64,000 nt of DNA from an uncultured Alphaproteobacteria bacterium. GTDB lineage: Bacteria; Pseudomonadota; Alphaproteobacteria; Micropepsales; Micropepsaceae. The notes under the pieces were generated by a model. That model was not told where the DNA came from. It saw nothing but the letters and a program-made list of their open reading frames with translations, and did not search any database. Where the stretch lies: contig CADEFU010000004.1 in assembly GCA_902826695.1 (NCBI GenBank), positions 248,001 to 312,000 of the forward strand, written 5' to 3'. The translations under genes and the position numbers were made by a program. Below, piece after piece: positions 7,815-10,793 of this stretch; the stretch's first letter is position 1; the number at the start of each line of letters is the position of its first letter.

Positions 7815-10793
7815 ATGACCAATCCGACCATCTTGAGTCCGAACGAAACGCTGGGCCTCACCGGCGCCGCTCTCGACAGCCGCGTACGCAAGTCGGCGAG
7901 CCACATCAACGACCTGACCTTCGCTCAAATCGGCCAACGCCTTCGCGCAGATGCGCAAAAGAACGAACTCACCTACGAACGCGACGGCAAATTCGAACCG
8001 ATCCCCGTGATGCTGCGACCTCTCCTCGCTATGAACGAGCAGCTCGGCTACGTCCAGCACGTCTGCCAACGCCTCACCGACGCGCTGAAGCTGCTACCAT
8101 CGCTCTACCTGAACGATCCCGTGGTCAAGAAGATCATCGCGATCACGCCCGGTGAAGAAGGTTGGCTCCGAGATACCTGGACGCCCGCGCACCAACGCAA
8201 CAACACAGTCTACGGCCGCCTCGATGCGGTGTGCGACTTCACCGCCGCGGGCTGGCAAGACACCCTCCACTTCATGGAAGCCAACCTCTCCGGCGTCGGC
8301 GGAATCAACTACGCTCCGCTCGCCGAACAACTGGTGATGCGCGACATCATTCCAACGCTTCTCGATCACGACCCCACGCTCCGGATCGAACTGCCGCGCG
8401 ACCAGCGCGACCTCTTCATTCAAGTCCTGATCGACCACGCGCGAGCGCTCGGCCGCACGAAATGCCGCTTGAGCTTCGTCGAGCCGAAATACGCCGAAGA
8501 CGGCATCAACGAACAATCCGTTCTTAGCCAATACCTCGCCAAACGCCACAACCTCACGATCACCCACGCAGATCCAAGCGAGTTGCGCATCAAGGACGGC
8601 GACGTCTACTACGGCGACGAGTGCGTGGATGTCGCATATCGCGACTACGAGGTCCGGGACCTGATCGAACTCGAAGAGGAACTCGGCAAGCCTCTCGAAG
8701 CGATGCGACACCTGTTTAAACAGAACCGCGTCGTCTCATCCCTCGTCGGGGATTTCGATCACAAAAGTTGCTGGGAAGTGCTCACTGACCCCGCGGTCGC
8801 GGAGCGCTTCTTCAGCGCGGAGGAGTGCCGCCTCTTCCGCCGCCACGTGCTTTGGACACGCATCGTCGGCGAACGAAAAACGACGCTGCCCCACAACGTC
8901 GAGGGCGACCTGCTCGAGTTCATGCGCACGCACCGCGAAGAGCTTGTGATGAAACCAAACCGCTCCTACGGCGGCGAAGGTGTAACGATTGGCGCTTCGA
9001 CTTCAGCCGCCGACTGGGAAAGACTGATCGACGAAGCGGTAAGGAACGTCGACCACACCGAAGAGAACTGGGTTGTTCAAAAAGCCACCCGCCTGCCTGT
9101 CCACGAGTTCCCTGTCGTCAGCCAAGATGGCCGCGTCTTCGCCGAACAATTCTACGCCGTCATGGGCTTCGCGCCGACCGAAAACGGCCTTGGCATCATG
9201 TGCCGGGTCAGCCAAAGGCAAGTCGTCAACGTCGCCCAACATGGCGGCATGGCGGCGGTCCTCGTTGCCCACCCGCCGCGCGAACTGCGTGTCCCGAAAC
9301 GCTCGCAAGGCGGCCGCCACGACGGCGCCGAGGAAGCGCTCCGTTCGAAGATCACCGAGCTTCAGCACTTTGACAACGCGATCGCCGTCCTTGAATGGGA
9401 CGAAGAAACAACCCTGCCCGACGGCGGTCGCGACGAACGGGGCGAGCAACTCGGCACACTCGAGGCCGCAAGACACGCGCTCCTCACGTCCGACCATCTT
9501 GGCGATCTCATCGAAGAAGTCGCCGTGACCCGCGAAGGTGACGAACGTTGGCGTCGCGAAATCGAGCTGTTGCGTGACCTCCGCGCAAGCGACCTAGCAC
9601 TCCCGAACGACCTCGTTCGCGCCTACGCCGCCGCACGGTCACGCACCACGGCCGCCTGGGAAGACGCGCGCGAAGCCGACGACTTCAAACTGCTGGCACC
9701 GGCGCTTGGCGAGCTCGTCGCTCTAGCCCGCGAGTCGTCCAAAACCATCGACCCCGACGCCGACCCGTACGACATCCTGCTCGACGAGTACGAGCCCGGT
9801 ATGACGCGCGCGCGCCTCGAGCCCGTGTTGAACGCGCTCCGCAAGCGCCTCGTCCCAATGGTCCAGGAGTCGACGCGCAAAACAGCGTCCTGGCCGGACA
9901 GCATCACGCGCGCAGTCCCGGATGCAAAGCTGTGGGCGGTATGCCACGACGTTCTAGAGACGATCGGCTTCGATTTCACCCGCGGCCACCTCGATCGCGC
10001 AACCCACCCTGGCACCACGGCACTAGGTTTCGACGACGTTCGCCTTGCCTTGCGTCCCAACCACGACGACTTACTCGAGGCGATCCTAACCACGCTGCAT
10101 GAAGGCGGCCATGGCCTCTATGACCAAGGTCTCGCCCCGCAAGACCGCGCCACGCTTCTCGCTCAAGCTCCATCCATGGGCATGCACGAAGCCCAAGCGC
10201 GCCTATGGGAAAACCATGTTGGCCGCAGCAGCGCCTTCTGGCGCTTCCTGTTCCCACGCTTGCGCGAAAACCTCGGTGCCCTAACCCAAGGCCTGGACGC
10301 AGATAAGCTCTTCCAAGCGGTCAACCGCGTACGCCCAACCTACATCCGCGCGAGCGCCGACGAATTGTCATACCACCTGCACATCCTGCTTCGTTACGAA
10401 CTCGAAGTCGCGATGATCAAAGGCGACATTAAAGTCGACGATCTCGCGGGCGAGTGGAACAAGCGCAGCCAGTCGCTGATCGGCGTTACGCCGATGAGTG
10501 ATCTGACCGGCGTACTCCAGGATGGCCATTGGGCGTCAGGCATGTTCGGCTACTTCCCGACCTACACCCTGGGCAGCCTCTACGCCGCCCAACTCATCGA
10601 AGCCTATGGAAAAACCAGCGACCTCAACGCCGAAATAGAGCGCGGCGAGTTCACGCCTTTGCGCACCTGGCTCCGCGACAAGATCTACAGCTCAGGCGAT
10701 CGGATCCCGACCGAGGACCTGGTCACACGCGTCACGGGAAAAGGCCTCGACGTCGACGCCTATTTCCGGCACATCGCAGTGAAATTCGGCTGA
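7815..10793 (+). CDS. Fusion of circularly permuted ATP-grasp ligase and M32 metallocarboxypeptidase
   Basis: 992 residues from the ATG at 7815 (GGAA just upstream); a start at 7764 would add 17 residues of low-complexity sequence. Residues 1 to about 495 resemble the type 2 circularly permuted ATP-grasp proteins: FMEANLSGVGGINYAPL, a nucleotide-binding VMKPNRSYGGEGVTIG (Lys 380) and NWVVQKATRLP. After a short basic linker (about 490-505), residues 505-992 form a complete carboxypeptidase Taq (M32) domain. It has LEWDEETTLPDGG near its start, the zinc motif HEGGH (762-766), the third ligand in MHEAQARLWE (Glu 792, the expected 30 residues on), the RPTYIRASADELSYHLHI region and a full C-terminus. 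Both halves look intact in one frame. It would be a cytoplasmic ligase plus carboxypeptidase; the substrate is unknown. It ends 4 bp from the convergent transporter gene. Confidence 0.85.
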   Translation: MTNPTILSPNETLGLTGAALDSRVRKSASHINDLTFAQIGQRLRADAQKNELTYERDGKFEPIPVMLRPLLAMNEQLGYVQHVCQRLTDALKLLPSLYLNDPVVKKIIAITPGEEGWLRDTWTPAHQRNNTVYGRLDAVCDFTAAGWQDTLHFMEANLSGVGGINYAPLAEQLVMRDIIPTLLDHDPTLRIELPRDQRDLFIQVLIDHARALGRTKCRLSFVEPKYAEDGINEQSVLSQYLAKRHNLTITHADPSELRIKDGDVYYGDECVDVAYRDYEVRDLIELEEELGKPLEAMRHLFKQNRVVSSLVGDFDHKSCWEVLTDPAVAERFFSAEECRLFRRHVLWTRIVGERKTTLPHNVEGDLLEFMRTHREELVMKPNRSYGGEGVTIGASTSAADWERLIDEAVRNVDHTEENWVVQKATRLPVHEFPVVSQDGRVFAEQFYAVMGFAPTENGLGIMCRVSQRQVVNVAQHGGMAAVLVAHPPRELRVPKRSQGGRHDGAEEALRSKITELQHFDNAIAVLEWDEETTLPDGGRDERGEQLGTLEAARHALLTSDHLGDLIEEVAVTREGDERWRREIELLRDLRASDLALPNDLVRAYAAARSRTTAAWEDAREADDFKLLAPALGELVALARESSKTIDPDADPYDILLDEYEPGMTRARLEPVLNALRKRLVPMVQESTRKTASWPDSITRAVPDAKLWAVCHDVLETIGFDFTRGHLDRATHPGTTALGFDDVRLALRPNHDDLLEAILTTLHEGGHGLYDQGLAPQDRATLLAQAPSMGMHEAQARLWENHVGRSSAFWRFLFPRLRENLGALTQGLDADKLFQAVNRVRPTYIRASADELSYHLHILLRYELEVAMIKGDIKVDDLAGEWNKRSQSLIGVTPMSDLTGVLQDGHWASGMFGYFPTYTLGSLYAAQLIEAYGKTSDLNAEIERGEFTPLRTWLRDKIYSSGDRIPTEDLVTRVTGKGLDVDAYFRHIAVKFG

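Follow-up and report, generated by a model that had tools for sequence, protein, structure and literature searches.

Synthetase and hydrolase domains with opposing activities are known to share one polypeptide chain, as in GspSA, whose amidase is kept in check by its synthetase domain (PMC6272389). The fused protein investigated in this study resembles E. coli GspSA and trypanothione synthetase-amidase in that the same ATP-grasp fold (Z 22-24) and a hydrolase are found in a single polypeptide. However, its hydrolase is a C-terminal M32 zinc carboxypeptidase instead of the N-terminal CHAP cysteine amidase of GspSA, and its Pfam matches include neither GSP_synth (PF03738) in the ligase half nor any CHAP amidase domain. 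A comparable logic of ligase and eraser is represented by the RimK/RimB and tubulin tyrosine ligase/carboxypeptidase pairs, in which an ATP-grasp ligase acting at the C-terminus is combined with a carboxypeptidase or protease on separate proteins. Furthermore, E. coli YgiC/YjfC and Cp1B of E-64 biosynthesis have the same fold (Z 24-26) and form amide bonds on small acids or peptides; unlike the fused protein, they are single-domain enzymes without a peptidase and use other substrates. Cp1B links an amino acid to trans-epoxysuccinate, and YgiC/YjfC are peptide-spermidine ligases according to a title cited in the same paper (PMC12568646).

Architecture of the fused protein

In the window, i.e., the whole 64,000-nucleotide stretch analysed, the gene at 7815-10793 on the plus strand was translated as a single stop-free frame of 992 residues, with a short linker of about 12-15 residues (~494-507) between the halves (Table 1). 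This agrees with the initial annotation, and the junction is open in all fused relatives. The genome is a 4.3-Mb draft (99.7% complete) with alphaproteobacterial MAGs as its nearest named relatives, and the M32 half is its sole M32 gene. Genes for MurJ, an alpha/beta hydrolase and an arylesterase-like protein lie upstream on the minus strand, and a convergent MFS transporter gene lies downstream. These surroundings do not suggest a pathway, and PADLOC matched no defence family.

Table 1 Features of the fused gene in the window, with residue numbers of the protein in brackets.
Feature	Position	Strand	Basis
Fused gene: N-terminal GSH-synthetase/Gsp-synthetase-like ATP-grasp ligase and C-terminal M32 metallocarboxypeptidase (992 aa)	7815..10793	+	Pfam, PDB matches, relatives, model
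Ligase half (1-494)	7815..9296	+	AlphaFold2 model, pLDDT 91; VIA-align matches
RLDAVCDF (135-142)	8217..8240	+	R135 and D137 invariant in 72 relatives
EANLSGVGG (155-163)	8277..8303	+	Putative Mg-binding E155 and N157 invariant in 72 relatives
KPNRSYGGEGVTIG (380-393), predicted ATP-binding lysine and Gly-rich loop	8952..8993	+	K380, G386, G387, G393 invariant
RVSQRQVVNVAQHGGMAA (464-481), conserved C-terminal ATP-grasp segment	9204..9257	+	Alignment of relatives
Linker (495-507)	9297..9335	+	Frame open in all fused relatives; dN/dS
M32 carboxypeptidase half (508-992)	9336..10790	+	Pfam, PDB matches
HPG...DVRLA (731-733, 741-745), sites of HPF and DxRxT, both altered	10005..10049	+	M32 alignment
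HEGGH (762-766), zinc ligands and catalytic Glu	10098..10112	+	Invariant positions in M32 alignment
Glu792, third zinc ligand, within HEAQARLWEN	10188..10190	+	M32 alignment

The N-terminal half scored weakly in Pfam against PF14403 (CP_ATPgrasp_2; E 2.8e-4, 20.4 bits), under the gathering cut-off of 32, and the Pfam GSH-synthetase family was absent from the matches to the fused protein at E<0.1. Its only significant PDB profile match was 3n6x (E 3.2e-4), a putative glutathionylspermidine synthase of the CP_ATPgrasp_2 family that, unlike the fused protein, is standalone and uncharacterised; Cp1B was a weak sequence-profile match (E 0.46). When this half was modelled alone by AlphaFold2 from an alignment of 72 sequences, the pLDDT reached 91; a full-length model from 14 sequences gave a poor N half, with pLDDT <50 across most of residues 1-348. 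Structure comparison of the ligase-half model by VIA-align retrieved soybean homoglutathione synthetase 3kal (Z 28.6, 422 residues aligned), human GSS 2hgs (26.7), YgiC/YjfC (26), Cp1B (24.4), GspSA (24) and 3n6x (23.7). The next fold class remained at Z <10, and RimK superposed only in part (Z 8, ~210 residues). The likeness to eukaryotic-type glutathione synthetases (2hgs, yeast 1m0w and 3kal) extended over 408-427 residues at Z 26-29 and rmsd 3.6-3.9; in contrast to these enzymes, the ligase half shares 10-15% identity with them, lacks the Pfam GSH-synthetase match and comes from a genome with a bacterial GshB. The modelled N half thus falls squarely within the glutathione synthetase/glutathionylspermidine synthetase superfamily as a predicted complete three-domain circularly permuted ATP-grasp fold, much as the initial annotation had described it from the sequence.

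The residues R135, D137, E155, N157, R276, D277, K317, K380, G386 and G387 were invariant among the 72 ligase relatives. At the level of motifs, they presumably match the superfamily residues that bind substrate and metal/ATP in GSS and GspSA, and we take the motifs RxD, ExN, KP..GG and VN...GG to form the same catalytic arrangement as in eukaryotic-type glutathione synthetase. Because of the fold and these invariant binding residues, the N half very probably functions as an ATP-dependent carboxylate-amine ligase.

The C-terminal half (residues 509-991) matched Pfam PF02074 (peptidase M32) with an E value of 9.4e-153 over profile positions 2-489 of 489, and M32 structures in the PDB matched with E values down to 1.7e-100. 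Full-length homology and all zinc-site residues are shared with the M32 carboxypeptidases 7a03, B. subtilis 3hq2, Thermus 5wvu and Pyrococcus 1k9x, which, unlike the present protein, are unfused. The zinc-site and catalytic residues H762, E763, H766 and E792 were invariant across 96 M32s, so the M32 half with HEGGH and Glu792 is complete as first proposed, and a metal-dependent carboxypeptidase function is predicted for it. The accompanying statement that HEFGH is the commoner M32 motif was mistaken: it occurred in none of the 96 collected M32 stretches, which carry HE(G/T/A/V/C/L/I/M)GH instead, and the solved M32 7a03 itself has HEGGH. The HES/AQ motif (HESQ) reads HEAQ in the fused protein, and IRXXAD and GXXQDXHW are kept as IRASAD (844-849) and GVLQDGHW (899-906). 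HPF and DXRXT are also listed among the M32 family motifs (PMC7918520); here they are replaced by HPG and DVRLA, and the loss recurs in 11 of the 30 fused members counted. This loss does not undo the M32 assignment, which rests on the whole-length match and the zinc site.

The altered HPF/DxRxT marks a divergent M32 subgroup. Both motifs were kept in 45/45 comparison M32s, which lie outside the fused and divergent-pair clades and were all drawn from ligase-bearing or alphaproteobacterial genomes, whereas at least one was lost in 20/43 M32s of these clades; four Chloroflexi downstream M32s with both motifs kept were left uncounted. The difference gave a Fisher p of 3e-8 with relatedness ignored and is not a corrected test, since the losses trace to related branches: one alphaproteobacterial subclade, as one event, among the fused proteins, and several branches of the divergent-pair clade. 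The motif divergence in ligase-associated M32s is as would be expected for a specialised substrate.

Distribution and descent of the fusion

In the survey of the fusion and of side-by-side genes that the initial annotation had envisaged, a scan of genome contigs identified both halves in one frame in 30 species-level genomes besides the window, and head-to-head pairs were found in Gemmatimonadota, Planctomycetota and Myxococcota. The fusions belong to Alphaproteobacteria, Planctomycetota MAGs, Gammaproteobacteria (Chromatiales and another) and one Myxococcota MAG. Most genomes of the window genus encode the full-length fused protein, as do genomes from some further genera of the family, where a close ligase homologue without M32 was seen solely at contig ends. 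The junction frame was open in 13/13 fused relatives aligned over their full length, and also in the other fused contigs holding both halves. One of the 30 (L080, 10001-10177; same genome as L013) has its fused gene frameshifted near residue 50, through either a sequencing error or decay of the copy.

Phylogenetic trees placed the fused ligases in one clade (100/100) and the fused M32s in one clade (100), which points to a single fusion event with later vertical descent and, probably, horizontal spread. Both halves are under purifying selection, with dN/dS among close relatives of 0.05-0.16 for the ligase and 0.08-0.22 for the M32, and about 0.08-0.20 over the junction residues 488-510; the linker length is conserved among the fused assemblies. 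The open junction in fused relatives and the low ratios in both halves (0.05-0.22) indicate that the fusion is neither chance nor a missed stop. The neighbours of the fused gene vary from lineage to lineage, so the fusion module appears self-contained. In some Planctomycetota (L065, L066 and L067), an HSP90 (htpG-like) gene immediately precedes the fused gene, and the two overlap or abut.

Ligase and M32 genes linked outside the fusion

A separate ligase gene with about 43-52% identity was found in 47 genomes. At eight of these loci (L097, L098, L099, L100, L101, L103, L117 and L124, with L098 cut at a contig end), a head-to-head M32 shares the spacer with the ligase. An even draw of 298 genomes from Gemmatimonadota, the phylum of G558, yielded 10 ligase genes, six of them with a head-to-head M32, and one further pair each came from Planctomycetota (G1017) and Myxococcota (G1659). 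All 12 comparable head-to-head M32s were located in one clade of 18 (support 86), whose remaining six members come from ligase-bearing genomes. Furthermore, four Chloroflexi have an M32 from yet another branch 1.2-3.5 kb downstream of the ligase. In a Phycisphaeraceae MAG (L103:6899-10143), two adjacent M32 genes on opposite strands are found next to the separate ligase.

An M32 was present anywhere in the genome in 37/47 separate-ligase genomes and was not found in the other 10, some of which are incomplete; the M32 is thus dispensable or replaceable and not strictly required by the ligase. A TldE/PmbA-like gene without HExxxH directly follows the ligase at seven Chloroflexi loci (L089, L092, L095, L104, L113, L127 and L128), and these partners may be inactive subunits, as the HExxxH is missing. 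At two of the seven, an M42-type peptidase gene is next in line. Other peptidase-family genes beside separate ligases encode M42 (L128), S9 (L112 and L129) and M20 (G1646) members. Taken across several phyla, the fusion, the head-to-head pairs and the nearby genes support a functional link between the halves, and the ligase so appears to work with an M32 in many lineages.

A second-tier ligase family (L194-L206 and L232-L239; profile E about 1e-45 to 1e-138) occurs in Planctomycetota and Myxococcota with no M32 alongside. Distant ligase relatives (22-29%) are carried on plasmids of Sinorhizobium, Mesorhizobium, Pantoea and Streptomyces (L052-L055), and those of Pantoea and Streptomyces are surrounded by further ATP-grasp, aminotransferase, NRPS and CapA-type genes resembling small-molecule pathways. 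Two candidates were set aside: the long open frames at N-like genes in L207 and L208 as further fusions, because no Pfam family matches the extra stretches, which are probably chance frames of GC-rich DNA, and GT4 glycosyltransferases near a few ligases as partners, because their distance is inconsistent and was judged coincidence.

Candidate functions of the ligase and carboxypeptidase pair

Since several phyla keep the two genes fused or side by side, the ligase and the M32 probably handle one common peptide. Glutathione synthetase-type enzymes lengthen a peptide at its C-terminal carboxylate, and M32 enzymes cut residues from a free C-terminus. By analogy, we tentatively put first a bifunctional enzyme whose ligase and carboxypeptidase both act on a single peptide metabolite. 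With ATP, the N half would phosphorylate a small peptide, or a peptide-like acid, at its C-terminal carboxylate and would couple the activated carboxylate to an amine, in the simplest case an amino acid, like glutathione synthetase with gamma-Glu-Cys and Gly. The fused M32 zinc carboxypeptidase would recognise the free C-terminal carboxylate and hydrolyse the terminal residue off again, and both activities in one chain would control how much extended peptide is present, in the way that E. coli GspSA controls glutathionylspermidine. Both enzyme activities, the shared substrate and same bond, the order and direction of the steps and the kind of peptide are what we infer in this scheme. The make-and-remove enzyme suggested by the initial annotation gains from the functional link, the chemistry and the GspSA precedent, and its opposite action on one peptide stays conditional, for the linkage indicates common use and not opposite action. 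With a polyamine as acceptor, which is what has been reported for YgiC/YjfC, the free carboxylate that an M32 needs would be missing from the product.

A sequential route is nearly as likely. The M32 would trim a precursor, exposing a new C-terminal carboxylate or freeing an amino acid, and the ligase would then cap the end with another amino acid or amine, in one-way remodelling or salvage. The fusion and the gene pairs are accounted for equally well, the other peptidase families beside separate ligases (TldE/PmbA-like, M42, M20 and S9) resemble general peptide processing, and YgiC/YjfC of the same fold appear as peptide-spermidine ligases in a title cited in PMC12568646. However, the head-to-head layout puts ligase and M32 on separate transcripts, which a fixed step order does not need. 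We know of no precedent in the superfamily for fusing two one-way steps, unlike the fusion of synthetase and hydrolase.

It is unlikely that the fusion is mere bookkeeping, i.e., that two peptide-metabolising enzymes that differ in substrate share expression and the M32 is a general peptide scavenger. M32 enzymes are indeed broad in specificity, and about a third of the more distant relatives searched have an unfused M32, but the linkage is repeated across several phyla and arrangements, the altered motifs are confined to ligase-associated M32s in the comparison, and the fused M32s form one old clade.

A role for the N half as alternative glutathione synthetase, with the M32 half degrading glutathione or a relative, is very improbable. 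Eukaryotic-type GSH synthetases are the best structural match, and several ligase-bearing Chloroflexi possess a GCS2 gene yet lack a clear GshB. Nevertheless, there is no Pfam GSH-synthetase match, any GCS2 is absent from 13/47 genomes, and canonical GshB is already present in most fused proteobacterial genomes searched as well as in the window genome, for which this reading is rejected. Because canonical gshB and a gshA-type gene are located elsewhere in the window genome, the ligase is not needed for glutathione there, and glutathione is an unlikely product. Besides the gshA-type gene, this genome contains a second GCS2 (YbdK-like) carboxylate-amine ligase (L175:7703-8881; G000 C6:110714-111553). 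A YbdK-like GCS2 was rejected as a partner of the ligase: it occurs in several ligase genomes, but the same 13/47 have no GCS2, and the neighbourhood is never common. Finally, an assembly or sequencing artefact joining two adjacent genes, for which nothing was found except the general risk of draft genomes, is refuted, as is the missed frameshift or stop that the initial annotation had considered, by the same in-frame junction in 30 other assemblies, the kept linker length and purifying selection across the linker.

In the literature searched, no paper mentions M32, carboxypeptidase and ATP-grasp together, in agreement with the earlier remark that no named system has this architecture. That remark needs narrowing, since a synthetase and a hydrolase in one chain are already known; what the literature searched does not describe is the pairing of this ligase family with M32. 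Possibly, though short of probably, the bifunctional enzyme belongs to a previously undescribed regulated system, widespread in uncultured bacteria, that acts on a peptide metabolite or a C-terminal peptide tag. Such a system would combine a GSH-synthetase-like writer with an M32 eraser that is fused, head-to-head or replaced by other exopeptidases. The pairing of ligase and carboxypeptidase, conserved in several bacterial phyla, points to an undescribed peptide metabolite, and the fusion places both activities in one gene, which is convenient at the bench. The physiological roles of the M32 family are poorly known, and a specific pathway for this family would follow.
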